A stretch of DNA of 35,956 bases from Acidobacteriota bacterium (lineage in GTDB: Bacteria; Acidobacteriota; Polarisedimenticolia; J045), in contig RFHH01000079.1 in assembly GCA_003696075.1 (NCBI GenBank), positions 1 to 35,956 of the forward strand, written 5' to 3'. Position numbers and translations under genes: made by a program. Of this stretch, positions 1,911 to 34,844 are shown piece by piece (the stretch's first letter is position 1; every line of letters begins with the position of its first letter). Below the pieces are notes generated by a model. The model was not told the origin of the DNA. It did no database searches and saw only the letters and a list, made by a program, of their open reading frames with translations.

Positions 1911-2888
1911 TCAGCCGCCGACGGCGATCATCGTCCGGCGCGGCCAGCTCGTTGCGGGCCGGTCCTTCAGCGCGAGGACATCGCGCACGATCTCCGATAT
2001 CGCGGCGGTGTCGCCGCGCCGGAGCGGTTCCAGCAGGTCGATGCCGTCCTCCCCGCGCAGGCAGCGCAGCAGCCGGCCCTGGGAGTCGAGACGCAGGCGG
2101 TCGCAGCCGTCACAGAAAGGCGCCGAGACCGGCGAGATGAACCCCACGGCCACGTCGCGCCCGCCGACGCGGAAGAGCCACCGGCCGGCGGTTCCGCTGC
2201 GGCCGAGCGGGCCGCGGTCCTCGAAAGCCGACGCCAGCCGCCTTCGCGCCTCGCCCGCGGACAGGAATTCCCGCCGGAACAGCGGCGCTCCCGCTCCGAT
2301 CGGCATCAGCTCGATGAAGCGGATCTCCGCGCCTCGATCCGCGGCGAAGCGTACGAGCCGGTCGAGCTCGCTCGCGTTGACCGAGCGCATCAGGACGGTG
2401 TTGATCTTCAGGGGCGAGAACCCGACGCGCGCTGCGGCGTCGATTCCTGCCAGCGTCGCCTCGAGCCGCCCGGCCGGCGTCACGCGCGCGAACCGCATCG
2501 GGTCGAGCGTGTCGAGGCTCACGTTGACCGCGTCGAGTCCGGCCCGTCGCAGCTCGGCCGCGAGCGGGGCGAGGCGCTGGCCGTTGGTCGTCATCGCCAG
2601 GACCGCGCCCGGAAGCCGCTGCCGGAGGCCGCGCACGATGCGCGCGATCCCGGGCCGCAGGAGCGGCTCACCGCCGGTGAGGCGGACCTTTCGTACCGGC
2701 GCCGCCTGCGCCACGGCGGCCGCCAGGGCGACGATCTCGTCGTCGCCGGGCGGCGGGGCGGTCCTCCGGCGCGGCGAGGGAGGGCCCGGCCGGCAGTAGC
2801 GGCAGCGCAGGTCGCACGCCGACGTCACCGACAGGCGCAGGTAGTAACCGGAAGCAGCGGGGAGGGAAGCTTCGAGTCCGTCTTTCAT
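1911..2888 (-). CDS. moaA: GTP 3',8-cyclase MoaA (molybdenum cofactor step 1)
   Basis: A radical SAM enzyme of 325 residues that converts GTP to 3',8-cyclo-GTP, the first step of molybdopterin synthesis. The N-terminal radical SAM motif is CDLRCRYC, followed by the LTGGEPLLR strand that contacts SAM. The C-terminal second [4Fe-4S] site reads FCDGCDRLRLDSQGRLLRCL. The protein ends in Gly-Gly, the C-terminal diglycine that MoaA uses in catalysis. I placed the start at 2888 because GGAAAGGGAACGG lies just upstream and the family begins near here; the open frame continues to 2954 through an Arg-rich stretch that would run over the leader hairpins. The gene heads the moaA-MOSC-transporter-mobB run. 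Confidence 0.95.
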   Translation of the reverse strand: MKDGLEASLPAASGYYLRLSVTSACDLRCRYCRPGPPSPRRRTAPPPGDDEIVALAAAVAQAAPVRKVRLTGGEPLLRPGIARIVRGLRQRLPGAVLAMTTNGQRLAPLAAELRRAGLDAVNVSLDTLDPMRFARVTPAGRLEATLAGIDAAARVGFSPLKINTVLMRSVNASELDRLVRFAADRGAEIRFIELMPIGAGAPLFRREFLSAGEARRRLASAFEDRGPLGRSGTAGRWLFRVGGRDVAVGFISPVSAPFCDGCDRLRLDSQGRLLRCLRGEDGIDLLEPLRRGDTAAISEIVRDVLALKDRPATSWPRRTMIAVGG

Positions 2889-2910
2889 CCGTTCCCTTTC
2901 CGAACGCGGG

Positions 2911-2981
2911 AGGCCCGAGCGTTTCCCCTCGGACCCTGTCGCCCGCCGCCCCATGGCCCGTCGGGCTGTAGGAGCGGCGGG
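2911..2981 (-). promoter_or_regulatory. Structured 5' leader of moaA (two hairpins)
   Basis: Two strong stem-loops lie between 23 and 93 bases upstream of the moaA start. The distal one pairs CCCGCCGC with GCGGCGGG (2942-2949 with 2974-2981) and encloses a nested GCCCG/CGGGC hairpin (2956-2966). The proximal one pairs 2912-2919 with 2928-2935 over 8 bp (one G-U), with a loop containing GGGAAACG on the minus strand. No U-tract follows, so a terminator is less likely. The position before a Moco gene suggests a Moco-type riboswitch or leader, but I could not match the conserved core and in GC-rich DNA such stems can arise by chance. Confidence 0.35.
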
Positions 2982-3315
2982 TCGGAAACGGTGTCCTCGA
3001 TCACCGTCGATGTTAGCCCAGTTTCCTCACGAAACCCTCGTCCCGGGCGCCGCGGCGGCTCGGCGGTCCGGGTCTGCCGCCCTGTCGTTCCCGCCCGCTG
3101 CCCCGAGCGCAGGGGCACCACCCGCCCCCGGCCTGCCGGACGTCCCCCGAGCGGCGCACCGTACGCCTCGGAGGGTGCCCCGGCGTTGGAGCGGAGAGTT
3201 CGGCCTGCGGCGGCTGGACCGGGCGGTCTTTCCCCGGCCCCGTTCCCTCGAAATCCGCGGAGCCCGACTCCCGCCGGGACGGCGGCCTTCGACCGAGGGG
3301 GAGACCGTCCCGGGC
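2982..3315. other. Intergenic region between sigma-54 regulator and moaA
   Basis: This non-coding stretch of about 330 bases separates the stop of the regulator gene from the moaA leader. I see no convincing ORF, no sigma-54 element (no GG-N10-GC with TTGGC/TTGC) and no good sigma-70 pair. The best -10-like hexamer on the minus strand is TAACAT at 3015-3010, without a matching -35. The moaA promoter probably lies here but cannot be placed. Confidence 0.5.
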
Positions 3316-5121: not shown

Positions 5122-5751
5122 TCAGAGCGCGGAGCGATCCCGGAGCAGGAGCTGGACCCGCCCCGCCAAGGCCGCCATCACCCGCACCTGGCGCGATCGG
5201 GCTCGGCGCAAGGCCTCCTCGGCGAACCGGGACCACCAGGCGCCGTGCTCTTCGGCGAACCCCTCGATCCAGGAACGCACACGAGCTCGGGCGCCGTCGT
5301 CGTGCCGCTCGAGGCACGCCGCCTCGCGGCGCAGCAGCGCCGCGGCGAACCGGAGCTGATGCCCGATATGGTCCGGGCCGAGGTGCCGGAACGGCGCCAT
5401 GTCGTACCCGGCGCGCGCGTAGAGCAGTCGGCAGGCGGCCGCCGCCGGCCGCCCGCCCTCGTCCGCGTGAGCCCCTTCGCGAGGCACGACCGCCCGGGTC
5501 CGATCGGGGATCCGGAACAGAGCCTCGAACTCGCGGGCATGCCGGTCCGGATCGGCGAACCGCCCGCCGGGATCGGCGGCGAGCACACCCGATGCCACGA
5601 GGCCCGGAATCCAGCGCGGACGCCTCAGGAGGCGCTCCAGCTCGGGGGTCGGGCCGCCGAGGAAATAGCTGCCGGCGAGGTCCACCAGGTCGGCCGCGTG
5701 CTCCCGCACGGCCGCCGGGTCGGTTGCGCGCGCCCGCGCCGCCCCGCTCAT
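5122..5751 (-). CDS. TorD/DmsD-family molybdoenzyme chaperone
   Basis: This is a 209-residue cytoplasmic, helix-rich protein with features of the TorD family: an early FLGGPTPELERLLRRP segment, a middle LFRIPDRTRAVVPREG segment and the hallmark GPDHIGHQLRFAAALL at about residues 125-140. Such chaperones bind the Tat leader and apo-form of a molybdoenzyme until the cofactor is inserted. It is the last gene of the reductase operon and its ATG overlaps the stop codon of the ferredoxin subunit (ATGA), consistent with dedicated service to the enzyme at 6378-9428. Family membership is clear from pattern and context; the client is inferred. Confidence 0.85.
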   Translation of the reverse strand: MSGAARARATDPAAVREHAADLVDLAGSYFLGGPTPELERLLRRPRWIPGLVASGVLAADPGGRFADPDRHAREFEALFRIPDRTRAVVPREGAHADEGGRPAAAACRLLYARAGYDMAPFRHLGPDHIGHQLRFAAALLRREAACLERHDDGARARVRSWIEGFAEEHGAWWSRFAEEALRRARSRQVRVMAALAGRVQLLLRDRSAL

Positions 5752-6323
5752 CCGTGAACGATGTCGCGCCGCCACTCGATGTTGGGACGCGTGAGGCGCG
5801 GGTCGGCGAACTCCGGCGGCGGTTCGCCCGGGGCGTCGACATCGTAGGACCAGCTCAGGGCTCGACCGATGCAAGCGGTGACGCAGGCGGGCTCCAGGCC
5901 GGCGTCGATACGGTGCACGCAGAACGTGCACTTCTCCATCACGCCCGTCTCCTCGTTGAACTGCGGTGCGCCGTACGGGCAGGCCGCCGCGCAATAGCGG
6001 CATCCGATGCAGCGGTCCTGGTCGATCAGCACGATGCCATCGCTCTCGCGCTTGACGATCGCGTCGGCGGGGCAAGCCTTCATGCATGCCGGCTCGTCGC
6101 AGTGGTTGCAGGACATGCTGAAGAAGGCGCGGCGGGCGTTGGGATAGGTCCCCGATTCCACCTCGATGACGCGCCGCCAGTTGGTCTGGCGGGCGCTGAA
6201 TGCCGAGATCAGCGGGAGCGGGGAACCCGCCGGCGCAGTGTTGTTTTCCGCCTTGCACGCGATCTCACAGGTGTGGCATCCGGTGCACTTCGTCAGATCG
6301 AGGATCCAGCCGACGTTAGGCAT
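5748..6323 (-). CDS. Four-cluster ferredoxin subunit of the molybdoenzyme (DmsB/TtrB-like)
   Basis: The product (191 residues) carries four Cys motifs typical of the electron-transfer subunit of DMSO-reductase-family complexes: CTGCHTCEIAC at 13-23, CNHCDEPACMKACP, CIGCRYCAAACPYG and CTFCVHRIDAGLEPACVTAC. Each pair of motifs binds two [4Fe-4S] clusters. It has no signal peptide, so it is probably exported in complex with the Tat-bearing catalytic subunit. The start has AGGAGAG upstream. It lies 54 bp after the catalytic gene and overlaps the chaperone gene. No NrfD/DmsC/TtrC membrane anchor gene follows, so electrons probably come from cytochromes rather than directly from a quinol-oxidising anchor. 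Confidence 0.93.
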   Translation of the reverse strand: MPNVGWILDLTKCTGCHTCEIACKAENNTAPAGSPLPLISAFSARQTNWRRVIEVESGTYPNARRAFFSMSCNHCDEPACMKACPADAIVKRESDGIVLIDQDRCIGCRYCAAACPYGAPQFNEETGVMEKCTFCVHRIDAGLEPACVTACIGRALSWSYDVDAPGEPPPEFADPRLTRPNIEWRRDIVHG

Positions 6324-6377
6324 GTCCGTCTCTCCTTGACGCCAGATGTCTTCGGTCCGAGGCCGCGGTCCCCGCGA

Positions 6378-9300
6378 TCAGCGTCTCCCGTGCATCCTCT
6401 TCTCCCGAAGGTTCCTGCGGATGTCCGGCGGAGCCGTCCGGCCGCGCAGCGGCTCCGGGCGGCGCGATCCGGCGGCCCCCGCCGCAGCGCCTGCGAGAGC
6501 CGTGCCGCCTGCCGGGACGACCCTCACCCGCGTGTCGTAGAACGACGCCGAGCCGCCGATCTTGTCCTGCAGGCAGACGTCGCCGAGGTAGGGATCGGTC
6601 ATCAGCAGCGGGTTGATCGCGATCCCCCGGCCCCGCGCGGGATCGTGCGCGACCGGCTGGCCGTCGATCGTGTTCGAGCCGTTCGATCCCATTTCCCAGT
6701 GGCCGAACGAGTGCGGGACGCCGATCACGCCGGGCCGGATGCCCTCCGTCAGGCGCACGCGTCCGATGGCCACCGCGCCCGTCGGGCTCTCCACGCGAAC
6801 GAGATCCCCCGTGCGCAGTCCGCGAGCCTCGCCGTCCGCCGCGTTCATTTCGATGGCGTTCTCGGGTCTGAGGCCCTGCAGCCACGGATTGGCGATCGTG
6901 CGGGCCTGTGCGTGGTAGGCGTAGCGGTAGGTGACGACGTGCAAGTCGAACTCGGGGGAGGCTGTCACGGGCCTGTCGAGCACGTCACGGATCGGCTCGT
7001 ACTTCGGCAGGGGATCGTAGAACTGCCCGGTCATCGAGTCGCGCGTGGTTGCCAGCGGTTCGATGTAGATGTGGATCAGGTTCTCGAACCGGTGGCGCAG
7101 ATAGTCGCCGTCGTAGGCGACGGCCGGGTCGGAGGGGTCGCCGCTCGTCGGCTCGAACACGCCTCCCTTGGCGAGGATCTCCTCGACCGGCACGCCGCTG
7201 TGGATCGAAAGGTTGTTGAGGATGTTCAGGTACCAGTCCCATGCCGAGTAGAGACCCGACCGCCAGTCGTAACCGGGGGCCGCCCCGGTGAGGTCGAACG
7301 CGCCGGCCCCGATCCCGGGCAACCCCAACCGCCCGCCAAGGGCGATCATGATGTCTTCCATGAGCTGCGGGCCGGTCGCCTCGTCGGTGCCGAGCCAGAA
7401 ATCCCGCGCCACGTTCCCCTGCGAGAGAGGAGAGACATAGAAGCGACGCGTCTTGCCGTCGATCGTCTCCTCGATGAACTCTCCCACGAGGGGTTGCCGG
7501 AAGCCGGAGGTCTTGGTGAGGATGGCCGGCGAGACATGGGGCGTGGAGAAACGCTCGAGCCACGTCGTGTCCGGGAGGATGTAGTCGGCCCACTTCGAGG
7601 TCTCTCCGATGAGGATGTCGAAAGCGACGAGCAGCTTGATCTTGTTCTCGTCAGCCAGGATCCGCTCCCCCTCGGCCCGGGCCGCGGGCGTCGAGTAGAG
7701 GAGGTCGTTCCAGTAGAGGATCACGGCCTCGACCGGGTACGGATAGCCGTCCTTGATCGAGGGCAGGATCTCCTGGTAGCACCAGCGCTTGTTGAACGGG
7801 AACCACGGTCGCCTGGCGGGATACCCATCGCGGGCGAACAGATTCGGCGCGTCGGTCTCGTAGTGCTTTCCGTGGCGTGAGATCGGCACGCCGGAGGGGG
7901 TGAGCCCGCCGACCACGGTCTTCAGGTTGACCTGGCCGGGGGCCTTGCCGCCCATCTCGCCGAAGTGCGACCCGCCCTTGCTGTTGCCGCCCTTCCAGTC
8001 GAAGTTGCCGTTCAGAATGTTGAGCAGGTGAATGGCGAACAGGTTGTAAGCGCCGTTGGTGTGCTTGACCGGACCGCGATAGGGGTTCGCCACCCCCTTC
8101 TTCCCGGCGGCGGCGAACTCGCGCGCCGTCTCCTCGATCAACCGGACGTCGATCCCGCAGATCGCCGCGTACTCGTCGAGCGTCTTCTCCCGCACCCGTT
8201 CGACCAGGCGGGACCACACGGTGCGCGCGGTGGTGCCGTTGACCGACACGACACCGGGGTCGAGCTCTCCTTTGGAGCCCGGGGCGAGGCTCGCCGGCCA
8301 CGGCTGGCCGCCGTTCCAGACGAGCGGCTCGCCGGACGGGTCGCGCAGGAAGGTTCCGGTGCTCTCGTCGACGAGGAAGGTGGCGTCACTGTACGACTTT
8401 TCGCCGTTGACGTTCGGCTTGGTGTTGGTGAGGAAGTTCCGGTCGAAGCGGTCGTTGTCGATCATCCAGCGGGCCATGCCGAGCGCGAACGCCGCGTCCG
8501 TACCGGGCTTGATCGGGATCCAGCGGTGCGACCGGGCGGCGGTGTTGGACAGGACCGGGTCCACCGTCACCATCCGGCCGCCTCGGGCGAGGAAGTCGGT
8601 GATCATCCCGGTGAGCGTCTGCATCGGGAATCCCGCCTCGAGGGGCCGGGTACCGAACCAGATCAGGTAGTCGGCGTTCAGGATGTCCGGCTTGAAGTGG
8701 TGCGCCTTGAAATCGGTCATCAGGTCGCCGCCGGTGTGGTGCGAGACCTCGCAGATCGACGTGTGGTCGTGGCGGTAGTTGACCGTGCCGAAGCCGTTCT
8801 TCCAGATGCGGTCGGTGAATTCCTTCTGTCCGTGCTCGATGCGGCCGGCGGAGAACAGCACCTTGTTCGGCAGGTCGCCGAACTCGGGGAAGGCGGGATC
8901 GATCGGGACACCCGGCTGGTAGTAGGGGCGCAGTTTGTCGGCGATCTCGTCCAGCGCTTGCTTCCAGGAGATCTCCTGCCACTGGCCGGAACCGCGGGGG
9001 CCGACGCGCTTGAGCGGGTTCCGCAACCGGTACGGGTCGTAGACCGTCTGCACCGCGGCCTGGGATTTCACGCAGTTGTGGCCCCGAACGAGGTCCGCCT
9101 GCTCGGGAGGTGTGGTGTAGGGCAGCCGCTCATGGGGGAGGGCGGCGTTGGGGTGGTACGGGTTGCCGTCGACCTTGACCAGGGTGCCGTCGACAACCTT
9201 CCCCTGGATACCGCACGCGGAGTGGCACATCAGGCACACGGAGCGGACGATCCTCACCCCGGGCTCGGTCTCCGGCGGATCGGGATTCCCGTAGTTGACG

Positions 9301-9428
9301 GTCTCCACCGCCGCCGACGTCAGCACCGACCGGCCGAGCGTCAGCGCGGCCCCGACGGCGCCGGTGGTCTTGATGAACTGCCTCCGGTCCATGTGGAAGG
9401 CGGGCGTCAAGTCTCGGGTCTCGCTCAT
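6378..9428 (-). CDS. Tat-exported molybdopterin oxidoreductase catalytic subunit (TtrA/ArrA-like clade)
   Basis: A 1016-residue bis-MGD enzyme. A twin-arginine leader DRRQFIKTTGAVGAALTL starts at residue 14 and carries no lipobox Cys. The [4Fe-4S] site is Cys65, Cys68, Cys72 and Cys119 (CLMCHSAC and GHNC). The predicted Mo ligand is Cys226 in TSICEVSHHTGG, as in the polysulfide/thiosulfate, tetrathionate and arsenate reductase branch rather than the Ser-ligated DMSO reductases. GNPYHPN and the stretch VYDPYRLRNPLKRVGPRGSG resemble TtrA-like proteins. The substrate cannot be read from sequence: tetrathionate, polysulfide, selenate and arsenate are all possible. The start is supported by AGAGGTGA a few bases upstream. 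The last 45 or so residues are a basic Ala/Arg-rich tail with no evident function. Confidence 0.9.
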   Translation of the reverse strand: MSETRDLTPAFHMDRRQFIKTTGAVGAALTLGRSVLTSAAVETVNYGNPDPPETEPGVRIVRSVCLMCHSACGIQGKVVDGTLVKVDGNPYHPNAALPHERLPYTTPPEQADLVRGHNCVKSQAAVQTVYDPYRLRNPLKRVGPRGSGQWQEISWKQALDEIADKLRPYYQPGVPIDPAFPEFGDLPNKVLFSAGRIEHGQKEFTDRIWKNGFGTVNYRHDHTSICEVSHHTGGDLMTDFKAHHFKPDILNADYLIWFGTRPLEAGFPMQTLTGMITDFLARGGRMVTVDPVLSNTAARSHRWIPIKPGTDAAFALGMARWMIDNDRFDRNFLTNTKPNVNGEKSYSDATFLVDESTGTFLRDPSGEPLVWNGGQPWPASLAPGSKGELDPGVVSVNGTTARTVWSRLVERVREKTLDEYAAICGIDVRLIEETAREFAAAGKKGVANPYRGPVKHTNGAYNLFAIHLLNILNGNFDWKGGNSKGGSHFGEMGGKAPGQVNLKTVVGGLTPSGVPISRHGKHYETDAPNLFARDGYPARRPWFPFNKRWCYQEILPSIKDGYPYPVEAVILYWNDLLYSTPAARAEGERILADENKIKLLVAFDILIGETSKWADYILPDTTWLERFSTPHVSPAILTKTSGFRQPLVGEFIEETIDGKTRRFYVSPLSQGNVARDFWLGTDEATGPQLMEDIMIALGGRLGLPGIGAGAFDLTGAAPGYDWRSGLYSAWDWYLNILNNLSIHSGVPVEEILAKGGVFEPTSGDPSDPAVAYDGDYLRHRFENLIHIYIEPLATTRDSMTGQFYDPLPKYEPIRDVLDRPVTASPEFDLHVVTYRYAYHAQARTIANPWLQGLRPENAIEMNAADGEARGLRTGDLVRVESPTGAVAIGRVRLTEGIRPGVIGVPHSFGHWEMGSNGSNTIDGQPVAHDPARGRGIAINPLLMTDPYLGDVCLQDKIGGSASFYDTRVRVVPAGGTALAGAAAGAAGSRRPEPLRGRTAPPDIRRNLREKRMHGRR

Positions 9429-9439
9429 CGCCGTCACCT

Positions 9440-9895
9440 CTATCTCATGTAAAAGACGGGCCCCGGTCCGGACGGCCCGTGGCAGAGCGCGCACAGCTCC
9501 GGGTCGACGTGCTTGCGCAGAGCGCCGCTCGAGTCGATCTCGAGCTCGACGTACTTGTGGCACTGGATGCAGACGGCGTCGGTGGTCCCCTTTGCCGGGT
9601 TGTATCCCGGGGTGTACGGCACCATCGCGACGTGGAACGACGGAACGCGCGGGTCCGCCGAGGTTCGCTCCATCACCTCCTGGTGGCAGGCGAGGCACCG
9701 GCCGTCGTAGCGGTCCGATTCGGGATCGTGAAGCGCGAGGAGGTTCTGGGCCGTCTGGGCGGGAAGCGGCGTGCCGCGCTCCGGAGCCGCCGCGCGCGGA
9801 GGCTGGTGCGCCGACCCCGGCGGCATCGCGGGTGCCGGGGCCGTCAGACCCGCTGCGGCCAGGACCAGGATGCTGTGAAGCTTCGATCGTCGCAT
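9440..9895 (-). CDS. Periplasmic triheme c-type cytochrome
   Basis: The 151-residue product has an N-terminal signal peptide (MRRSKLHSILVLAAAGLTAPAPA) and three heme-binding motifs: CLACH at 67-71, CIQCH at 109-113 and CALCH at 135-139. A strong Shine-Dalgarno (AGGAGGAGAAGAG) fixes the start. The gene lies between the MtrB-like porin gene and the molybdoenzyme gene, 22 bp after the former and 11 bp before the latter. It is most simply an electron shuttle between the decaheme conduit and the iron-sulfur subunit, or between an inner-membrane quinol dehydrogenase encoded elsewhere and the reductase. I do not recognise a named family beyond multiheme c-type cytochrome. Confidence 0.88.
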   Translation of the reverse strand: MRRSKLHSILVLAAAGLTAPAPAMPPGSAHQPPRAAAPERGTPLPAQTAQNLLALHDPESDRYDGRCLACHQEVMERTSADPRVPSFHVAMVPYTPGYNPAKGTTDAVCIQCHKYVELEIDSSGALRKHVDPELCALCHGPSGPGPVFYMR

Positions 9896-9917
9896 CTCTT
9901 CTCCTCCTTGCGCAGAT

Positions 9918-11858
9918 CTACCAGCTCGAGCGCAGGCCTGCGCTGAGAAGATGGAAGGTGTACTCGTCCGAGCGTGAAGCCCCGGCACTGAAGTCCCAGA
10001 ACGACCATCGCAGGAACAACGCGAGCATGCCCTTGAGGCGCTGCGAAACCTCGACCTCGGCGCGCGTGAGCGCGAGGTCGAGATCCGACGTCTGCTCCAC
10101 GCGCTCCGCGCTTCCCCTCAACGTCCCTCGCCGCCACAGGGGGGTTTCTCCGCCCACGGCCGCGTACAGCCCGTCGACCTCCTCCGAGACCGGCGCGTAC
10201 GACGGCCGAACCCCCTCGCGCGGGAAGGTCCACTCGAGGTTCGTCCAGCCGGCCTCGGCCCACACCGCGCCGCGCTCGCCGCTCCTCGACAGCGAGCCGG
10301 AGATGCGGAGCAGCCGGTGATCGGCGTCGACGGGTTCCAGGACGACGGACGGATCGAACACCGGATCGAAGAGGGGGCGGTCGACGTCGAGATCGGCCTT
10401 CTCCCAGCGAACGCCCAGGCCGGCCTGCAGCGGGCCGGAGCGCCGCCGGACCCGAATGCCGGCCGCGGTGGTCGTCACGTCCCGCCCGCCGGTCGCGTAG
10501 CCGTCGGTGAGGTCGCGGATCGTCACGTCGGTCGAGCGGTCCTCGAGCCGCGCCCAGCCCTCGATCCGCATCCGGCCGAGCGGCATCCACGCTCGCGCGC
10601 GGAGCCGCAGGAGATCGGTGTCGCGCTCGAGGTCGGCGAGACTCGCCGGATCGCGCTCGTCGATCGTGCGCTCCGCCGACTGGAACCGCGCCTCCGCGGT
10701 CAGGCGGACCCGTGAAAGGCGGAAAGACCCGCGCGCGGTGAGGCCGGCTCGGCTGTCCTGATAGGACGTCTGCGCGAGCCCGTAAGGGGCGCCGGCGAGG
10801 TCGAGCGCGACCGCGCCGGTCTGGTCGGTGTCGGCCGCGTCGGCGGCGAGGGTGATCCGCACTTTCGGCGACGGAGACCAGACCGCTCCCACCGCGCCGG
10901 CGAGGCGGCTGCGCTCGACGTCGCCCCCGTGCGTGGCGAGACCCGCGACGAGCGGCGTCCCGCTGGGCTGCTCGCGCCGGTCGAACGCCTCCGGAGTGAA
11001 GGTGGCGTCGGTGTAGTCGGCATGCGCCTGCAGCGTCCAGTTCCGGACCGGCCAGACGGCGCCTGCCCGGACCCACGTCTCGTCGAACTCCGTCCGGTCG
11101 GACCAGGCATTGACGTCGATGAGTTCGGCCGTGCCCCAAGCGGGCAACCGCACCGCACTCCGCGCGTCGCCGCCCGCGAGGCCGCCGGCGAGACGCAGGT
11201 CGAGCCGGCCGAAGCGCAGCTTGGCGGTCAGCTCCGCCTCGGCGATCGAGGAGTCGAACGTCTCCAGACCGGCGGCGTAGGTCGCCGGGAGGCCGTTGTC
11301 CGCGAAGGAAAAGCCGCCGATCGACGGCACCCGCTCGCCGTCGTGCCCAGCGGCCGACAGGCGGAGCGCGATGCGGTCGGCGCCGCGCAGCCGGCCGGAA
11401 AGGACCAATTCGAAGCGGTAGCGGTCGTCGTGCGGCTTGCCGACGCCGAAGAAGCCGGGAAGCTCCGTCGTCGGCGGCACGAGTGTGGCCACGGCGGTTC
11501 CGGACGGGAGCCGGTCGTCGGCGAACGATGTATCGGACCAGCCGCTGTGGAAGGTCCCCGTGATGGCCAGGCGCAACCGGCGCCCCCTCCGCTCGAGGTC
11601 GAACCAGCCGGAACGGCCCGCCGTCGCGGCTGCTTCCAGCGACCAGGCTCGCTCCGCATCCGCCAGCCGCCAGCGCAAGACGTCGAGAAACGGCCGATCG
11701 TCGAGGCCGCCGGCGTGTTCGAGAAAGCGCCCTCGGTCGCCGTCCTCGATCGAGAACAGCGCCCCGGCGACGATCTCGCCGTCGCCGTCCTCCCCGCCGG
11801 CGCGCGCGGGGACCAGCATCAACGGAAGGACCAGCGCGATCCACCACCTCCGCTTCAT
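9918..11858 (-). CDS. MtrB/DmsF-like outer-membrane beta-barrel
   Basis: The protein has 646 residues, with a signal peptide (MKRRWWIALVLPLMLVPARAG) and then a long series of alternating hydrophobic/polar strands with many Gly, Asp, Arg and aromatic residues, ending in a C-terminal Trp (AGLRSSW) as outer-membrane barrels usually do. Size, strand pattern and position directly after a decaheme cytochrome gene match MtrB/PioB/DmsF porins that sheath an MtrA-type cytochrome through the outer membrane. The CxxC pair near the N-terminus known in Shewanella MtrB is absent. A perfect Shine-Dalgarno (AGGAGGTGA) overlaps the end of the decaheme gene, indicating strong coupled translation. The family call rests on pattern and neighbourhood rather than a motif. 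Confidence 0.8.
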   Translation of the reverse strand: MKRRWWIALVLPLMLVPARAGGEDGDGEIVAGALFSIEDGDRGRFLEHAGGLDDRPFLDVLRWRLADAERAWSLEAAATAGRSGWFDLERRGRRLRLAITGTFHSGWSDTSFADDRLPSGTAVATLVPPTTELPGFFGVGKPHDDRYRFELVLSGRLRGADRIALRLSAAGHDGERVPSIGGFSFADNGLPATYAAGLETFDSSIAEAELTAKLRFGRLDLRLAGGLAGGDARSAVRLPAWGTAELIDVNAWSDRTEFDETWVRAGAVWPVRNWTLQAHADYTDATFTPEAFDRREQPSGTPLVAGLATHGGDVERSRLAGAVGAVWSPSPKVRITLAADAADTDQTGAVALDLAGAPYGLAQTSYQDSRAGLTARGSFRLSRVRLTAEARFQSAERTIDERDPASLADLERDTDLLRLRARAWMPLGRMRIEGWARLEDRSTDVTIRDLTDGYATGGRDVTTTAAGIRVRRRSGPLQAGLGVRWEKADLDVDRPLFDPVFDPSVVLEPVDADHRLLRISGSLSRSGERGAVWAEAGWTNLEWTFPREGVRPSYAPVSEEVDGLYAAVGGETPLWRRGTLRGSAERVEQTSDLDLALTRAEVEVSQRLKGMLALFLRWSFWDFSAGASRSDEYTFHLLSAGLRSSW

Positions 11859-11862
11859 CGGG

Positions 11863-12765
11863 TCACCTCCTGCCGCGCGGGTTGAACAGGGGGTTGGTGT
11901 TGGAGCCGTGGACCTGGGCGTGGCAGTCCCAGCAGCGGGCCCCTCCGCCGAGCGAGAACTCGTGCTCGTTGACCTTGCCGATCCCCGGGAAGTTCGACTG
12001 GACATGGCACTCGAGGCAGATCGCGTTGCCGGAGCTGCGCACGAGATCGCGGTTCCAGGAGCCGTGGGGGCGGTGGCAGGAGGTGCACCCGTCCGACATC
12101 GCCTCGTGTTCGTAGAGGAAAGGGCCCCGCTGTTCGGTGTGGCAGCGGGTGCAGCGGCGCGAAAGCGACTCCTCGCTTTCGAACGCCGCCTCGCTCCCGT
12201 GGATGTCGTGGCAGTCGGTGCAGCGGACGGTGCCCTCGCGGACGGGGTGGTGGTATTCGAGGCGGAACTCCGCCTCGACGTCGCCGTGGCACGACCAGCA
12301 GCGGTCGAGTTGCCCGCGGTCCTGCTCCCCCCGGCGCGGCGCGGCCGGTGCCTCGGTTTCGAAGTGCAGCGCTTCGCCTGCGTGGCAGTTCCAGCACGAC
12401 ACCTCGTCCGCGTGAGCCGCGCCGTCCCAGCCGGGGAAATCGCGGCGGTGGCACGACAGGCAGGCCGCCGACCGTTCCGCCGGGCCGTAGCCGGACAGCG
12501 TCGCGCCGCGGACGATGTCCTCCGCCTCTCCGCTTTCGAGGTGCGCGGCGGGATCGCCGTGGCAGGCGATGCAGAACGCCTCCGAGCCGGCGAGGATGCC
12601 GCGGTGCGGCCCCGAGGCGACGCGCGCCGCGACGTCGTCGTGGCACTCGTAGCAGACGCCGCCGGGGGACGTGCCGCCGGGATCCGCCGCGACGCCGGAC
12701 GCGATGGACGCCACCAGAAGAGCGGCGGGAAGGCCGTACCGGCGCCACACGCTGGGAACGCTCAT
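11863..12765 (-). CDS. Decaheme c-type cytochrome, MtrA/DmsE-like
   Basis: A signal peptide (through about VASGVAA) is followed by exactly ten CxxCH motifs, starting at residues 38, 65, 102, 114, 136, 162, 185, 207, 230 and 258, in a 300-residue protein. The C-terminal pattern CWDCHAQVHGSNTNPLFNPRGRR and the spaced distal His residues resemble the DmsE/MtrA decaheme family, which forms a molecular wire inside an MtrB-type barrel. It is the first gene of the operon, 4 bp upstream of the barrel gene, with GGGAGGAG before the ATG and a sigma-54 promoter just upstream. No lipobox and no separate surface cytochrome (MtrC/OmcA-like) are seen. Direction of electron flow, outward to an acceptor or inward from a donor, cannot be decided from sequence. 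Confidence 0.92.
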   Translation of the reverse strand: MSVPSVWRRYGLPAALLVASIASGVAADPGGTSPGGVCYECHDDVAARVASGPHRGILAGSEAFCIACHGDPAAHLESGEAEDIVRGATLSGYGPAERSAACLSCHRRDFPGWDGAAHADEVSCWNCHAGEALHFETEAPAAPRRGEQDRGQLDRCWSCHGDVEAEFRLEYHHPVREGTVRCTDCHDIHGSEAAFESEESLSRRCTRCHTEQRGPFLYEHEAMSDGCTSCHRPHGSWNRDLVRSSGNAICLECHVQSNFPGIGKVNEHEFSLGGGARCWDCHAQVHGSNTNPLFNPRGRR

Positions 12766-12990: not shown

Positions 12991-13064
12991 CGGAGTGGGC
13001 TATCCTGAGCCCGACGACGCCGGGGGGCCCGACGGCACTCCCCCGGGACTTCCGGAGGCGCGCG

Positions 13065-13415
13065 ATGGCCAAGCGGATCGACTGGTACTACCACCGCTCG
13101 GGGTGAACGAGCTGCGGGCGCGCGCGGGAGTTTCTCGCGCCTCGTGACGTGAGGGTCGGAGAGGAGGTCAGCGCGGGCAAGGTCAAGATCGGGGCCGAGG
13201 AGGCGCTCGAGCTGGCGCGGTCGGTTTCGAAGATCCTCGTCGCCCGCGGGAAGAAGCTCGTCGAGTTCGACATGCGGCGCTCGCCGCCGCCGGACGACGA
13301 GTTGCTCGGACTGATCCTCGGCCGCTCCGGAACGCTGCGCGCGCCGGCGATCCGCACGGGCAAGACGCTGCTCGTCGGTTTCAACGAGGAAGCGTACCGG
13401 CGCGTGTTCGGGTGA
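13065..13415 (+). CDS. ArsC/Spx-like selenoprotein with in-frame TGA (Sec14)
   Basis: Read through TGA at 13104-13106 as selenocysteine, the frame gives 116 residues: MAKRIDWYYHRSGUTSCGRA, then a thioredoxin-like body ending KTLLVGFNEEAYRRVFG. U14-T-S-C17 aligns with the CxxC/CTSC redox site of ArsC/Spx-type proteins, after a predicted first beta-strand (IDWYYH). RSGTLRAPAIR supplies the usual cis-Pro segment. CGGAGG lies 7 bases upstream of the ATG. The frame stays open on both sides of the TGA, and starting at the downstream GTG (13149) would delete the first strand and active site. I know of ArsC-family (seleno)proteins in bacteria, but the substrate is unknown. The Sec machinery (selA, selB, selC, selD) is not in this window. 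Arsenic chemistry is not implied. Confidence 0.85.
13116..13142 (+). promoter_or_regulatory. Bacterial SECIS-like hairpin after TGA
   Basis: Directly downstream of the in-frame TGA, GGCGCG (13117-13122) pairs perfectly with CGCGCC (13136-13141), extended by a G-U pair. An alternative inner fold pairs GCGC (13122-13125) with GCGC (13137-13140) and GAG with CTC around a TTT loop (13131-13133), leaving two bulged G. The apical loop is about 25 bases after the TGA, within the range for bacterial SECIS elements read by SelB. No specific SelB contact could be confirmed by eye. Confidence 0.55.
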
Positions 13416-20268: not shown

Positions 20269-22206
20269 ATGACCAGTTCCCATGCAGCTTCCTCGCAGCC
20301 GTCCTCCTCTCCCGAGCCGCGCGTGGAGCGCGTCAGCGAGCACATCGTGGAGATCGTCTCCGACTCGGGAGAGGGTGCCCAGACCGCCGGCCAGATGTTC
20401 GGCACCGTCAGCGCCCGCATGGGAAACGGCGTGTGGACGGTGGAGATCATCCCCGCGGAGATCGAACCGCCCTTCCGATCCCGCGCCGGCGCCAGCGGTA
20501 ACCGGATCCGCATCTCGTCCGGCGCCGCCACCAACATGGGCGACGAAGCCGACGTGGTGGTGGCGCTCAACGAACAGGTGCTCTACAGCCGGATCGACGT
20601 CGGAGCGCTTCGGCGCGGGACGATCATCTTCCTCGAGAGCAAGTGGGGGGAGATCGACGACGAGAAGATCCGGCGGGAGTACCGAGAAGCGCTCGAGGAC
20701 TTCGAGAAGCGCGGCTACCGGGTCTTCGAGGTTCCGATGGAGCGCGAGTGCTTGAAGATCGTCCGCGACCCGCGCCGCGGAAAGAACATGTGGGTTCTCG
20801 GGATGCTCTGCGCGCTCTACGGGCGCAACGTGGAGTTCGTCCACGAGGAGATCCGGAAGAAGTTCGCCCGGAAAGGCGAGCAGGTCATCGAGAGCAACCG
20901 GAAGCTCGTCGATGCGGGGTACGCGTGGGCGCAGCAGAACATCCCGTTCCGCTTCGAGGTGCCGGCCCAGCCCGCCGAGAAGCCCCGCGTGGTGATGAAC
21001 GGCAACCAGGCCGTCGCTCTGGGAATCATGGCCTCGGGGATCGAGGTCGTGTCGATGTATCCGATCACCCCCGCGACATCGGTGTCTCACTACCTCGCCG
21101 CGAGCTTCGACAAGGCCGGTGGCTTCCTTCACCAGGCCGAGGACGAGATCTCGGCCATCGGTTTCGCCATCGGCGCCTCCTACGCGGGAAAGGTGGCCGC
21201 GACCGTGACCTCGGGACCCGGCCTGGCGTTGAAAACCGAGTTCATCGGGCTCGCCGTGATGGCCGAGATCCCCCTGGTGATCGTGGTCGTGCAGCGCGGA
21301 GGGCCCTCCACCGGGCTGCCGACTCGGGTGGAGCAGGGAGAGCTGCTGGCGTCGCTGTTCGGATCGCCGGGGGACGTTCCGAAGGTCGTCATCGCCCCCT
21401 CGTCGATCGAAGAGTGCTTCCACTTCATCATCACCGCCCGAACGCTGGCGGAGAAGTTCCGCACGCCGGTCATCGTCCTCACCGACGCCAACCTCGCGAC
21501 CGGACAGCAGCCGTTCACGCGGCCGGAGGTGCGCCCCGAGTGGCTGGCGCCGCCGCTCGACATGGCGCCGTGGGACCGCAACGTGGCCCCCTACGACTGG
21601 GATCGGGAAACGGGCCTCTCCCGCCGGCCGATCCCCGGCCAGCGCGGTGGCGAGTACGTGCTCACCGGGCTGGCCCACGACCGGTGGAGCCATGTCGCCT
21701 ACGAGTCGGCGATCAACCAGGAAGCGATGTCGATGCGCAGCCGCAAGCTGGCGGCGCTCCAGCGCACGCTGAAGCCGCCGAAAGTGTACGGGGATCCGGA
21801 GGGTGATCTCCTGGTCGTCGGCTGGGGGTCGACGCGTGGCGCCATCGAGGAAGCGGTCGACCGCGTGCGCGCCGACGGGGGGAGGGTCTCGTCGCTCACG
21901 CTCCGGTTCCTCTCTCCCCTGGAGCCGGGTCTCGCCGAGATCTTCCGCCGGTTCAAGCAGGTGATGACCGTCGAGATCAACTACAGCGACGACGGCGACG
22001 ACCCCGCCGTCACCCGGGAGTCGCGGCGGTTTTCGCAGCTCGCGTGGCTCCTCCGGGCGAAGACGCTGGTCGACGTCGACTGCTGGTCGAGGGTGCCGGG
22101 GACGCCTCTGCCTCCGGGACGCATCGAGAAGGAGATCCGCCGCCGCCTGGACGGAGAGAAGGCCGTCCGGCACGAGGAAGCGAAGAATGTACGGACTCAA
22201 GGATGA
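20269..22206 (+). CDS. korA: 2-oxoacid:ferredoxin oxidoreductase, gamma-alpha fusion (KorA)
   Basis: The protein has 645 residues. Residues about 25-215 form the POR gamma domain (VEIVSDSGEGAQTAGQMFG is its first strand and loop) and residues about 235-640 the alpha subunit, with the YPITPAT motif at 264-270. The layout is typical of 2-oxoglutarate (KorA) rather than pyruvate four-subunit enzymes. With KorB it performs CoA-dependent oxidative decarboxylation of a 2-oxoacid, reducing ferredoxin. The stop overlaps korB by 20 bases. No separate delta ferredoxin (PorD-like) gene is present; the large proteins encoded downstream may supply that function. 2-Oxoglutarate as substrate is the family-based guess. 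Confidence 0.93.
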   Translation: MTSSHAASSQPSSSPEPRVERVSEHIVEIVSDSGEGAQTAGQMFGTVSARMGNGVWTVEIIPAEIEPPFRSRAGASGNRIRISSGAATNMGDEADVVVALNEQVLYSRIDVGALRRGTIIFLESKWGEIDDEKIRREYREALEDFEKRGYRVFEVPMERECLKIVRDPRRGKNMWVLGMLCALYGRNVEFVHEEIRKKFARKGEQVIESNRKLVDAGYAWAQQNIPFRFEVPAQPAEKPRVVMNGNQAVALGIMASGIEVVSMYPITPATSVSHYLAASFDKAGGFLHQAEDEISAIGFAIGASYAGKVAATVTSGPGLALKTEFIGLAVMAEIPLVIVVVQRGGPSTGLPTRVEQGELLASLFGSPGDVPKVVIAPSSIEECFHFIITARTLAEKFRTPVIVLTDANLATGQQPFTRPEVRPEWLAPPLDMAPWDRNVAPYDWDRETGLSRRPIPGQRGGEYVLTGLAHDRWSHVAYESAINQEAMSMRSRKLAALQRTLKPPKVYGDPEGDLLVVGWGSTRGAIEEAVDRVRADGGRVSSLTLRFLSPLEPGLAEIFRRFKQVMTVEINYSDDGDDPAVTRESRRFSQLAWLLRAKTLVDVDCWSRVPGTPLPPGRIEKEIRRRLDGEKAVRHEEAKNVRTQG

Positions 22207-23140
22207 CTGGGAACTCGAACCGCGCGCCCGCCGGTTCGTCCTCGAGGACTACCAGGGAGCCACGCCGCGCTGGTGCCCGGGATGCGGCGACCACGCGATC
22301 CTGAACGCCCTGCAGCGGTTGGCCCGCGATGAGCAGCTCCCGCCGGAGAAGACGGTCGTCGTGTCCGGGATCGGGTGCTCCTCGCGACTGCCGCATTACA
22401 TGAAGACGTATGGCTTCCACGGGCTGCACGGGCGGCCCCTCCCGGTCGCGTGCGGGGTGAGGTCGCGGCGTCCCGATCTCAACATCTTCGTGATCACCGG
22501 CGATGGCGACTGCTGCGCGATCGGCACGGCGCACTGGATCCACGCCATCCGCTACAACATGAAGATGACCGTGATGATGTTCGACAACAACATCTACGGT
22601 CTCACGAAGATGCAGTCCTCGCCGACGACCCCGAAGAAGCACTTCTCCTTCACCCATCCCGGGGGCGCGCCGCTCAGCCCGATCAATCCGCTCGCGGTCA
22701 CGCTCGGAGTGCGGAACCTCTCCTTCCTCGCGCAGACGATCGACTGGAACCCGCCGCATCTGTACGCCACTCTCCGCGCGGCCCACAAGCACGAGGGGCT
22801 TGCCTTCGTGCGGATCCTCCAGCGGTGCCCGCATTTCATGCCGGAGATCTGGACGAGGCTGCAGGAGGATCCGCAGCTGGTGATGCTGCTGGAGCATCCG
22901 GAAGGTATCCAGCTCGAGGATGCCGCCAAGAGGCTGTTCAAGCGGCGGCGCGAGCACGATCCCCACGACCTGGCCGCCGCTCACGAGATCGTCAACGACG
23001 AGAGCGTCGTTCCCATCGGCCTGATCTACAAGAACGAGAACGCCGAGCGGTACGACGCCTTCTCGAGCCGCGGGATCGAGATGACGACCGAGGAAAAGCT
23101 TGCCGCGGCGCAGCAGGCGATCGACCGATTCCTCATCTGA
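22187..23140 (+). CDS. korB: 2-oxoacid:ferredoxin oxidoreductase beta subunit (KorB)
   Basis: A TPP- and [4Fe-4S]-binding catalytic subunit of 317 residues. The cluster Cys residues are C30 and C33 (WCPGCGDH), C64 (SGIGC) and C214 (LQRCPHF). The thiamine/Mg site is intact: GDGDCCAIG at 105-113 and NNIYGLT from 134. This contrasts with the two PFOR-like proteins downstream, which lack such a site, so KorAB is the only evident catalytic 2-oxoacid enzyme in the cluster. It overlaps korA by 20 bases and precedes the 819-aa gene by 17 bases. Confidence 0.95.
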   Translation: MYGLKDDWELEPRARRFVLEDYQGATPRWCPGCGDHAILNALQRLARDEQLPPEKTVVVSGIGCSSRLPHYMKTYGFHGLHGRPLPVACGVRSRRPDLNIFVITGDGDCCAIGTAHWIHAIRYNMKMTVMMFDNNIYGLTKMQSSPTTPKKHFSFTHPGGAPLSPINPLAVTLGVRNLSFLAQTIDWNPPHLYATLRAAHKHEGLAFVRILQRCPHFMPEIWTRLQEDPQLVMLLEHPEGIQLEDAAKRLFKRRREHDPHDLAAAHEIVNDESVVPIGLIYKNENAERYDAFSSRGIEMTTEEKLAAAQQAIDRFLI

Positions 23141-23157
23141 TTCACGGGGACGAGCGC

Positions 23158-25617
23158 ATGAGCCGCAGAGCGGACAGGCCGACCGACGCGAAGGGCACCG
23201 AGGCCGCGGGCGCGGCGGGTCCCCATTCGACCGGTGGGGGGGCGGAAGCGGCCACCCCGCCGCCCCTCAGAAGACCCGCAGCTCCCGCGGAGGTCGCGGC
23301 GCGCTCCGCGACCGCCGTGGTGCGGTTCCATCTCGTTCCGGAGGGAACCCCGGCCGGCGGCGGCGGTCCGGGACTGACGCCGGCAGCCCTGCTCGGCGCG
23401 CGCGCCTCGCGGCCGCCGTGGGAGACCTACCCGCTGTTCCTCGACGAGGACGGTACGGTGCGGCCGTTCGCCGCCCTCGTCCGGGACGGGATCGAGGAGC
23501 TCGCCGCCCAAGGCGGGGCGGACCTGATCGCCGGGGAGGTCGCGCGGCTCGCGCGGGCCGCGGCGCGGATCGCCGAACGGCATGGGGGGATCGTGCCGGC
23601 CGCATCCGGGCTCGCGGACGCTTTCACGCTCTTCCGGGAGGAGTTCGACCTGAGTGAAGCGGGAAGCGCCGCGCTCCGCCGGCAGGTCGCGGCCCTCGCG
23701 CAGACGCTGCCGGCCGGCGGTTACCTGCTCGCGATGGACGAGTCGGCGGCACCGCGCCTCCTCGCGCACGGCGTCCGGGCGGTGCGGCGGCGGCGGCTCG
23801 CCGACCGGCTGCCGGAGCTGAAGCGGCTCGCCGACCGGCTCGAGGCGATTCTGCGGACCGACGACGAGCTCGATCCCGGACGGCGCTCGCCGGAGTCGAT
23901 CGGCGCCGAGCTGGGCGGAGCGGCGGAACGGTTCGTCGATCCCTCCGCTCTCGCCGGGACCCTCCCGGGCCGCGGCCCGCAGCGACTGTCACCCGCGCAC
24001 CGCCGGAGGCTGGAGACCTCGCTGGAGGTGTTGCGGCGGCGGCTCGCCGCGGCCGAGACCGAGCCGGATCTCGTCCTGTTCGTGGAGGGGGAGGCGCCGG
24101 AGATCGGCTTGCCGGGCGTCGAGGTCCACCCTGCGGAGGACGCTCTGGCCGCCGCCGAAAGCCGGTTCGACGAGCTGGCGTCCGAGTTGACGGCGGCCGT
24201 CCGCGCGCTGCGCGCCGCCAGGCTCGAGGCCGACGGGGCATTCGAGGAGGAGCTGCACGAACCGGTGCTCGACGCGCTCACTTGGCGGGAGGCGACTCCC
24301 GAGGAGCAGGCGCTGGTGCCGCGCGTCGTCGCGCTCCTCCCCGCCCGGGTGCTCGAGCGCGAGCGGACGGAACGCTTCGTCGGCCTTCTGAGGAGTGCCC
24401 GTCCGGTGGTGATCCTGGCCCGCACCCCCGCCATTCCCGTCGCCGGCGGCGTGCCCGAGCCCGCCGGACCGGTTGCGGGCTGGCTGGCGCTGTCGCACCG
24501 CGCGGCCTTCGCCCTGCAGGGAACCCTCGCGGATCCGGAATCGCTCGCGGCGGGCTTTTCCCGCCTCGCCGCATCGCCCCGCACGGCCGTGGCGCTGTGC
24601 GCCGTGCCGTCAGGGGGTTCCGCGGCGGCGTGGTGGCGTTTGGTGGCGGCGGACGAGGGGCGGGCCCTGCCGGCGTTCCTCTACGACCCGGACGCGGGAC
24701 GCCACTGGGCCGACCGCTTCAGCGTGGCGGGCAACCGCCAGCCCGAAGCGCCCTGGCCCGCCTATCGGCTCGAGCCGGAGGACGGCGACTGGGAGCAGCG
24801 GCTGACCTTCGCTCACGCCGCGGCCCTCGTGCCGGAGCTGCGCGGGCATTTCCGGGTGCTGGAGCCCGGGGAATGGGCGGCGGATCAGGTGGAGATCTCC
24901 GAACTCCTGGACGAGCCCGAGGCGCACCCGCGGGCGATTCCCTACCTCTGGATCGTCGGCGAGGACGGCGCTCCCGCGCGCGCCGTCATTTCCCGCACCC
25001 TCGCCGAGGCGTGCGCCGAGCGGCTCGACACCTGGCACGCCCTCCAGGAGATGGGAGGGTACGCCAACGAGCACGCCCGGCGCGCCGCCGCCGCCGCGCG
25101 CGAGGCCGCCCTGGCCGAGGCGGAAGAGGAGCGGCGGCGCCTTCTCGAAAGCCACGCGGAGGAGCTCGACCGCGTGCGCCGGACCGCGACCGAGGAGGCG
25201 GTGGACCGGCTCGTGGCGGTGCTCACCGGGGCGGCGGCCGCCGAGACGCTCACCGCCGCGCCGGCGCCGCAGGCGCCGCCCCCCGTGCCGGAGCCGGCCG
25301 CACCGGAGGCAGCCGCCGAGGAGCCGGCGCCGGCCGAAGAGCCGCAGGAAGAGGAGGAGGACGAGCTCGCGCTGGAGCCGTACATCGACTCCGTCCTGTG
25401 CACGAGCTGCAACGAGTGCATCAACTTGAACCCGAAGCTGTTCACCTACAACGAGAACAAGCAGGCGCAGATCGGCGATCCGGCGGCGGGAACGTTCGAA
25501 CAGCTCGTCCTCGCCGCCGAGAAGTGTCCGGCGCGTTGCATCCATCCCGGAGCGCCGCGGCCGGGAGACGCCACCGCCACGGACGAGATGGTGAAACGGG
25601 CCGCCAAGTTCAACTGA
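23158..25617 (+). CDS. PFOR-derived protein with tethered C-terminal ferredoxin domain (non-catalytic)
   Basis: The product has 819 residues and no named family I can give. Residues about 30-250 are helix-rich. The middle (about 370-640) looks like a worn-down PFOR TPP domain: LTWREATPEEQALVP, then ALPAFLYDPDAGRHWADRFSVAGN, the counterpart of the PFOR pattern PLxxYDP...LSLxGNP. No GDG-NN thiamine site is present. A coiled coil (about 640-690) leads into a Pro/Ala/Glu-rich linker (about 705-740), then a ferredoxin-like domain with C748-x2-C751-x2-C754 and C790P, plus C794, enough for one [4Fe-4S] cluster. It is paralogous to the C-terminal half of the 1380-aa protein; both contain LTWR(D/E) and a W-x-x-LQE motif before a coiled coil. 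I infer an electron-carrying arm between KorAB and Rnf. Confidence 0.75.
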   Translation: MSRRADRPTDAKGTEAAGAAGPHSTGGGAEAATPPPLRRPAAPAEVAARSATAVVRFHLVPEGTPAGGGGPGLTPAALLGARASRPPWETYPLFLDEDGTVRPFAALVRDGIEELAAQGGADLIAGEVARLARAAARIAERHGGIVPAASGLADAFTLFREEFDLSEAGSAALRRQVAALAQTLPAGGYLLAMDESAAPRLLAHGVRAVRRRRLADRLPELKRLADRLEAILRTDDELDPGRRSPESIGAELGGAAERFVDPSALAGTLPGRGPQRLSPAHRRRLETSLEVLRRRLAAAETEPDLVLFVEGEAPEIGLPGVEVHPAEDALAAAESRFDELASELTAAVRALRAARLEADGAFEEELHEPVLDALTWREATPEEQALVPRVVALLPARVLERERTERFVGLLRSARPVVILARTPAIPVAGGVPEPAGPVAGWLALSHRAAFALQGTLADPESLAAGFSRLAASPRTAVALCAVPSGGSAAAWWRLVAADEGRALPAFLYDPDAGRHWADRFSVAGNRQPEAPWPAYRLEPEDGDWEQRLTFAHAAALVPELRGHFRVLEPGEWAADQVEISELLDEPEAHPRAIPYLWIVGEDGAPARAVISRTLAEACAERLDTWHALQEMGGYANEHARRAAAAAREAALAEAEEERRRLLESHAEELDRVRRTATEEAVDRLVAVLTGAAAAETLTAAPAPQAPPPVPEPAAPEAAAEEPAPAEEPQEEEEDELALEPYIDSVLCTSCNECINLNPKLFTYNENKQAQIGDPAAGTFEQLVLAAEKCPARCIHPGAPRPGDATATDEMVKRAAKFN

Positions 25618-25630
25618 CCGGGGCTCTGCC

Positions 25631-26479
25631 GTGAACGAGATCCTCACCGCCGCCGCCATCATGCTGGGGATCGCCGGGTTCTTCGGCGTGGTGCTGGCCC
25701 TGGCCGATCGCTGGCTGAGGGTCGAGGAGGACCCGCGGATCGAGGAGGTCGAGCGCCGGTTGCCGAACAGCAACTGCGGCGCGTGCGGCCGTCCCGGCTG
25801 CCGCGCCTTCGCCGAGGCGCTCGTGGGCGGGGAGGCCCAGCCCGCCGAGTGCACCGTCAGCGCGCCGGAAGCGGTCGAGGCGATCGCCGCTTTCCTGGGC
25901 GTTTCGGTGGGCCGCCGCGAAAAGCGCGTCGCACGGCTGCATTGCGCCGGCGGGCGCCTCGAGGTGAGGAAGCTCGCCGACTACCACGGGATCCCCTCCT
26001 GCAGGGCCGCCTTCGTCGTCAACGGCGGCGGCCGCGCCTGCCCGTGGGGATGCCTCGGCTTCGGTGACTGCGAGCGCGCGTGCAGCTTCGGGGCCATCCA
26101 CATGAACGACGACGAGCTACCGGTCGTCGATCCCGACCGATGCACCGCGTGCAACGACTGCGTGGTGGCCTGCCCGTTGGACCTGTTCACGCTGGAGCCG
26201 ATCACCAACCGCGTCATCGTCCAGTGCAGTGCGCCGCTCACCGGCGCCGCCGCGCGGATGGCCTGCGGCGTGGCCTGCGACGGGTGCGGCCGCTGCGCTG
26301 CCGATGCACCGGAGGGCGCGATCGAGATGCGCGGAGGTCTGCCCGTGATCGTCGACCCGAAGCGGCTGGACGAATCGGTGACCTTCCGCTGCCCGACGGG
26401 CGCCATCCGCTGGGTCGAAGGGCGTCAGTTCGACGAGGAGGCGCCGCCCCTCGAGGCGGCGGGAGGGCGCCGTGGCTGA
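25631..26479 (+). CDS. rnfB: Rnf complex subunit B (ferredoxin-like)
   Basis: The 282-residue protein has one N-terminal membrane helix (about 6-28), then the RnfB-specific NSNCGACGRPGCRAF with a following Cys, and two ferredoxin-type motifs (CPWGCLGFGDCERAC and CTACNDCVVACP). It is of the long RnfB type. The last two motifs are damaged: CDGCGRCAADAP lacks the fourth Cys, and the terminal motif keeps only the last Cys (FRCPTGAI). RnfB receives electrons from reduced ferredoxin at the cytoplasmic face. The start is GTG. The 1380-aa gene begins 8 bases before its end, so the two are translationally coupled. Confidence 0.93.
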   Translation: MNEILTAAAIMLGIAGFFGVVLALADRWLRVEEDPRIEEVERRLPNSNCGACGRPGCRAFAEALVGGEAQPAECTVSAPEAVEAIAAFLGVSVGRREKRVARLHCAGGRLEVRKLADYHGIPSCRAAFVVNGGGRACPWGCLGFGDCERACSFGAIHMNDDELPVVDPDRCTACNDCVVACPLDLFTLEPITNRVIVQCSAPLTGAAARMACGVACDGCGRCAADAPEGAIEMRGGLPVIVDPKRLDESVTFRCPTGAIRWVEGRQFDEEAPPLEAAGGRRG

Positions 26480-31948: not shown

Positions 31949-31955
31949 TCGAGCG

Positions 31956-34266: not shown

Positions 34267-34844
34267 TGGGCGAACTCGTCTGGATCTTCTTCTCCGCCAG
34301 CCTGATCAACAACTTCACCCTGGCCTACTTTCTCGGCCTCTGTCCGTTCTTCGGCGTCACGGGGAGGCTCGACACCGCTCTCCGGCTCGGCTTCGCCAAC
34401 ATCTTCGTGATGCTCATCACGTCGATGGCGGCCTGGGTGCTGAATTCGTTCATCCTGCCGTTCGCCCCGTATCTCCAGCTCATTTCCTTCATCGTGGTGA
34501 TCGCCAGCACGGTGCAGTTCGTGGAGATGCTGATCCGGAAGCTGAGTCCGACGCTTTTCCGCGCGCTGGGCATCTTCCTCCCCTTGATCACCACCAACTG
34601 CGCGATCCTCGCTTTGGCCCTGTTCCAGACCAACCGGGGCTACGATCTCGTACAAGGCCTCGTTTACGCCCTCGGCGCCGGTGTCGGCCTCACGATCGCT
34701 CTGGTCATCATGGCCGGCCTGCGGCAGGACGCGGAGCTGGCGGGTGTGCCGCGCCTCGTCCGGGGCACGGCGATGAGCTTCTTCATCGCCGGGATCCTCT
34801 CGATGGCGTTCATGGGGTTCGCCGGTCTGTTCCACGGCTCGTGA
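34266..34844 (+). CDS. rnfA: Rnf complex subunit A (membrane)
   Basis: A 192-residue membrane protein with six predicted helices, paralogous in topology to RnfE and inverted relative to it. The conserved Cys motifs are YFLGLCPFFGVTG near residue 25 and PLITTNCAILALAL near 107. It also has SFIVVIASTVQFVEM and IMAGLRQDAEL, which are well-kept RnfA features. The start overlaps the rnfE stop by one base (TGATG). It completes the RnfABCDGE set. Confidence 0.96.
   Translation: MGELVWIFFSASLINNFTLAYFLGLCPFFGVTGRLDTALRLGFANIFVMLITSMAAWVLNSFILPFAPYLQLISFIVVIASTVQFVEMLIRKLSPTLFRALGIFLPLITTNCAILALALFQTNRGYDLVQGLVYALGAGVGLTIALVIMAGLRQDAELAGVPRLVRGTAMSFFIAGILSMAFMGFAGLFHGS

Follow-up and report, generated by a model that had tools for sequence, protein, structure and literature searches.

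A selenoprotein gene of the NF041106 family, with a downstream SECIS-type hairpin, in an Acidobacteriota genome

Does the TGA codon that interrupts a short ArsC/Spx-like reading frame in an Acidobacteriota bacterium end translation, or does it encode selenocysteine (Sec) in a protein that ordinary gene calling truncates? The frame lies in a 35,956-nt stretch of DNA (contig RFHH01000079.1; hereafter the window), for which a preliminary description had proposed a hidden selenoprotein with a U-T-S-C motif. From the ATG at 13065 the frame passes through the in-frame TGA at 13104-13106 and then stays open until a TGA stop at 13413-13415. The read-through protein, MAKRIDWYYHRSG-U-TSC-GRAREFLAPRDV...GTLRAPAIRTGKTLLVGFNEEAYRRVFG, has 116 residues. 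It matches the NCBIfam model NF041106 (ArsC_rel_Se_1, "ArsC family (seleno)protein") over profile positions 1-107 of 107 and scores 130.3 bits, where the cut-off is 85. The match spans residues 5-111 and includes the part before the TGA, in line with the earlier claim of an open frame on both sides. That the protein is a selenoprotein of the NF041106 family is, in our judgment, almost certain. The locus is a monocistronic gene with a probably cytosolic product. The features of the gene, including the proposed Shine-Dalgarno sequence and the GTG-initiated frame that is all standard calling leaves, are collected in Table 1.

Table 1. Features of the selenoprotein locus, in window coordinates
Feature	Position	Strand	Remark
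Shine-Dalgarno GGAGG	13054..13058	+	6 nt 5′ of ATG 13065; read from the sequence
Selenoprotein gene, ArsC/Spx-like, NF041106 family	13065..13415	+	116 aa plus stop
UGA codon for Sec14, the U of U-T-S-C	13104..13106	+	assigned from UGA in homologues
Cys17 codon, likely resolving cysteine	13113..13115	+	Cys in 49 of 52 aligned rows
Bacterial SECIS hairpin (predicted)	13122..13140	+	8-bp stem, loop GUU at 13130-13132, 23 nt past UGA
88-aa GTG ORF, the conventional call	13149..13415	+	without the active site; not the true gene

The alignment with homologues that the preliminary description had called for bears directly on the codon. Among 57 readable homologue loci, drawn from many phyla, the Sec position is UGA in 56 and Cys in one, a locus from an Obscuribacterales genome (L011) with the motif C-N-T-C. 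One in-frame TGA is likewise found in all 14 matches from the class of the window and, across the 396 genomes of the phylum, in 27/27 matches above the NF041106 cut-off and 36/36 down to 53.7 bits; these class and phylum counts record a TGA anywhere in frame, the motif position having been read in the fetched loci only. Weaker matches in the phylum mostly lack a TGA and are other ArsC/Spx-like proteins. These homologues show a conserved Sec codon in the UGA at codon 14, which opens the U-T-S-C motif as had been proposed. Cys forms are nearly absent, and by the same comparison Sec is needed over Cys unusually strictly in this family. Given so strict a need, why selenium is required in NF041106 proteins is a testable question.

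Two other arrangements were seen among the retrieved loci. Near a contig end, L047:1-160 keeps the SECIS stem-loop, but unrelated sequence stands where the N-terminus and the Sec codon would be; this fragment may be an artefact of assembly or a gene in decay. A second ArsC/Spx-like family, also with U-T-S-C and UGA and with R-R-P retained, occurs in other genomes of the class (L094, about 1747-1791, and L095, about 1750-1794, both on the minus strand) and reaches no more than 22-25 bits against NF041106.

On comparison with homologues, the stretch leading up to the TGA has the pattern of conserved coding sequence. Between the window and its closest homologue, locus L001, the 13 codons 5′ of the TGA differ by one amino-acid change, and six of the eight base changes fall at third positions. 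This bears on the reading in which the TGA is a real stop, so that the product would be the 88-aa protein from GTG 13149 or the gene would be a pseudogene. The GTG frame does exist, but the conserved coding sequence upstream, the recurrence of the same TGA in many phyla, the Sec machinery of the genome and the covariation of the downstream hairpin all speak against it. On comparative grounds we consider a real stop already refuted and leave it very little probability.

The genome, which is 98.6% complete, has the means to decode UGA as Sec, as a look-up of the machinery suggested at the outset made plain: selA (502 bits), selB (329 bits), selC (a tRNA-Sec with anticodon UCA) and selD (352 bits) were all found. 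The selD frame itself contains one in-frame TGA and reads ...SGGUAAKIGPG... with TGA as U (G000 C209:4208-5134, minus strand, L078); SelD of this genome is thus probably a selenoprotein itself. Within the class of the window, selA is present in 39 of 41 genomes, and both genomes without it also lack the NF041106 gene. No support was found for a reassigned TGA (for example to Trp) or for a sequencing error. Trp never occupies the position in homologues, which have Cys or Sec there, the identical TGA occurs in independent genomes, and the gene's own TGA at 13413 terminates it where homologues end. Such an explanation has a negligible chance of being correct.

A GC hairpin had been noted 3′ of the TGA, and scoring it as a bacterial SECIS element had been proposed. 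The hairpin, GCGCGGGA-GUU-UCUCGCGC, folds with -11.7 kcal/mol. Published bacterial SECIS elements have a stem of 4-16 bp, a loop of 3-9 nt with G in loop position 1-2, a distance of 16-37 nt from the UGA and an MFE of at most -7.5, and the loop, spacing, stem length and energy of the present hairpin all lie within these limits. Rfam at gathering thresholds returned no SECIS-type match. Longer segments folded no better than their shuffles (z +0.1 to +0.35); the 19-nt hairpin alone gave z -4.2, a value biased by the prior selection of the segment. Because the z-scores of the longer segments are not significant, the argument for the hairpin is one of comparison and covariation.

This comparison was made in 31 relatives picked by their protein sequence. 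Stem positions pair in 92.7% of cells; shuffling lowers this share to 80.8%, and sliding the register lowers it to 61.3% or less. Two-sided stem changes number 29 against 10.2 expected. In 29 of 30 distinct sequences a Watson-Crick pair joins the third base of the Ala, Ser or Thr codon at U+6 to the middle base of codon U+11, with combinations such as GCG-GCG (Ala), GCT-GAG (Glu), GCC-GGG (Gly) and ACA-GTG (Val). The synonymous base at U+6 thus tracks the amino acid five codons on, a pattern that is not explained by selection at the protein level.

The hairpin is displaced by one base in a second clade, which has the motif A-S-K-F-L-D/E-A and is represented by 15 distinct sequences. There the shifted register pairs in 89% of cells against at most 43% in other registers, and the third base of the Ala codon complements the third base of the Asp/Glu codon in 13 of 15 sequences. 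The shuffle p-values for these comparisons (below 1e-5 and 2e-5) ignore the relatedness of the sequences. In the Cys homologue L011 four of the eight stem pairs remain and the 19-mer is unfolded; its Sec neighbours L036 and L049 have retained seven of eight. By this comparison L011 has lost the downstream hairpin. Taken on this covariation, the hairpin at 13122-13140 is real, and the earlier observation is borne out by conserved pairing with compensatory changes. It illustrates clearly how an RNA signal constrains the active-site helix of a protein. A planctomycete clade with the motif K/R-S/A-D-A-F-L-E-G (L004, L012, L018, L028, L030, L044, L058 and others) pairs well in neither register. Its members have predicted hairpins about 20-50 nt past the UGA without G at the loop start, and they may have a SECIS of another type.

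AlphaFold2 on the family alignment gave a model with a pLDDT of 93.8. Its nearest solved structures are Spx, which ranks first, YffB and ArsC-related proteins, and the similarity is moderate (TM about 0.5-0.57, rmsd 6-8). The fold is predicted to be ArsC/Spx-type thioredoxin-like, as first described. Among the invariant residues are Tyr9, Arg11, Sec14 (replaced by Cys in a single row), Gly62, Gly86, Gly89, Ala93-Pro94, Gly99 and Gly105-Phe106. No Cys/Sec position other than 14 and 17 is conserved, and exactly two such residues occur in 41 of 52 rows. In rows that lack Cys17 the residue is Ala, Ser or Val. Cys17 is replaced by Ala in L007, by Ser in L017 and L091 and by Val in L052, and all four proteins keep Sec. 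These losses have three or more separate positions on the tree (L052; L091; L007 with L017). Since Cys17 can be lost while Sec is kept, Sec14 would be the essential group and Cys17 would not.

The protein could be a true ArsC arsenate reductase that has Sec in place of the catalytic Cys12, with glutathione/glutaredoxin or thioredoxin as reductant. In ArsC the nucleophile stands in the spacing His8-x3-Cys12, and the residue before the cis-Pro is Arg94, which binds the oxyanion. The read-through protein matches the Pfam ArsC domain (PF03960, 34.3 bits against a gathering score of 24), the H-x3-Cys/Sec spacing is kept in 42 of 52 rows, and reviews label the family "arsenate reductase-like" (PMC13188914, PMC9312934). 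The residue before the cis-Pro, however, is Ala93 in 52/52 rows, the R-R-P of Spx aligning with R-A-P, and the Arg position of Spx "STRSK" is Gly62 in 52/52. Read from alignments to Spx, Ala93 and Gly62 speak against ArsC-like binding of an oxyanion such as arsenate. The protein also differs from ArsC (PF03960 / COG1393) by the extra Cys at +3, and no ars operon was seen among the top recurring-neighbour clusters inspected. Both Spx and ArsC have Arg ahead of the cis-Pro, where this family invariably has Ala, and for this reason we regard arsenate reduction as unlikely.

The U-T-S-C motif also matches the CTSC motif of Spx, so the protein might instead be a redox-sensing regulator that binds RNA polymerase, with Sec14-Cys17 as the switch. 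Spx is among the best solved relatives by both sequence and fold. The likeness to Spx and MgsR (1z3e, 3gfk, 6gho, 7f75) covers the ArsC/Spx-type thioredoxin fold, the CxxC-type motif and the C-terminal V-G-F/Y-N-E (VGFNE/VGYNE). Here, in contrast, Sec replaces Cys, R-A-P replaces R-R-P, and the Spx models NF002459 and TIGR01617 score far below their cut-offs (29.9 against 123 and 27.0 against 75.05 bits). A gap in the alignment to Spx adjoins the segment with which Spx contacts the alpha C-terminal domain of RNA polymerase, and a Sec14-Cys17 switch would be impossible in members without Cys17. A regulatory role of this kind seems improbable.

The best explanation of the whole, and one that we hold to be very likely, is an NF041106 Sec protein with a SECIS, a Sec machinery and a thiol/disulfide-type mechanism. 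The specific role that we favour, as somewhat more likely than not, is that of a thiol/disulfide-type oxidoreductase with a Sec nucleophile. In such an enzyme, SelB and Sec-tRNA(UCA) would decode the UGA as Sec, and Sec14 would attack an oxidised substrate (a disulfide, a sulfenic acid or a peroxide-type compound). Cys17 could then resolve the intermediate as a Sec14-Cys17 selenenylsulfide, after which the enzyme would be reduced by thioredoxin or a low-molecular-weight thiol. Since Cys17 is absent in at least three lineages, the two-residue resolving step would not be universal, and members without it would need an external thiol. A dispensable Cys17 agrees with a Sec nucleophile for which an external thiol can serve as resolving agent as well. 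A wider proposal, which we put forward tentatively, is that NF041106 forms a nearly obligate-Sec branch of the ArsC/Spx class, and is itself no arsenate reductase; in this branch Sec alone, and not the resolving Cys, would be indispensable, and a SECIS in two registers would have shaped the protein. If this is true, the same helix-1 codons carry the hairpin in both registers, and synonymous bases follow amino acids at a distance of five codons.

The family itself is already catalogued, and the gene is a real and ordinary member of it. It shares the length, the Sec at the first position of UxxC and a full-length match above the curated cut-off, and no feature separates it from the other members; residues 87 and 90 are R and T where P and N are usual, and these are individual changes. 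A review lists a UxxC arsenate reductase-like selenoprotein with the NF041106 accession (PMC13188914), and another lists one without it (PMC9312934). Surveys from 2006-2008 had reported ArsC-like selenoproteins, including UxxC and UxxS forms (PMC1794560, PMC2398784). The Global Ocean Sampling protein "Arsenate reductase 2" (cd03032) shares the ArsC/Spx class and UxxC, and its table entry fits either the NF041106 family or the R-R-P family of L094 and L095 (PMC2398784). The selenoprotein of the preliminary description therefore stands, while "hidden" applies to standard ORF calling only, as an NCBI model and reviews list the family. The observation is confirmed and its interpretation supported, and the case shows the loss of an active site by ordinary gene calling, confirmed cleanly from raw sequence alone. 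New here are the hairpin in at least two registers and the loss of Cys17 in at least three lineages, all of which keep Sec.

Clustering of the ORFs of 70 loci gave no conserved neighbours, the clusters listed being synteny among close relatives and self-overlaps only. As no neighbourhood recurs beyond close relatives in the inspected clusters, gene context is no help on the substrate or the reductant. Divergent from the selenoprotein gene, the region 5122-12765 (minus strand) encodes a DmsE-like decahaem cytochrome c, a possible outer-membrane beta-barrel, another c-type cytochrome, a TtrA/DMSO-type molybdoenzyme, its Fe-S subunit and a delta-type chaperone, and looks like an extracellular respiration cluster. 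This decahaem/molybdoenzyme cluster was considered as a partner of the selenoprotein and set aside, because it does not recur across loci. At 2880-2995 (minus strand), where a moaA-like gene (1911-2954, minus strand) starts, lies a molybdenum cofactor riboswitch (RF01055, 71.5 bits). On the plus strand, as judged by eye, the region 20269-35842 begins with genes for 2-oxoacid:acceptor oxidoreductase, after which come an Rnf-type electron transport operon and an ApbE-like protein.
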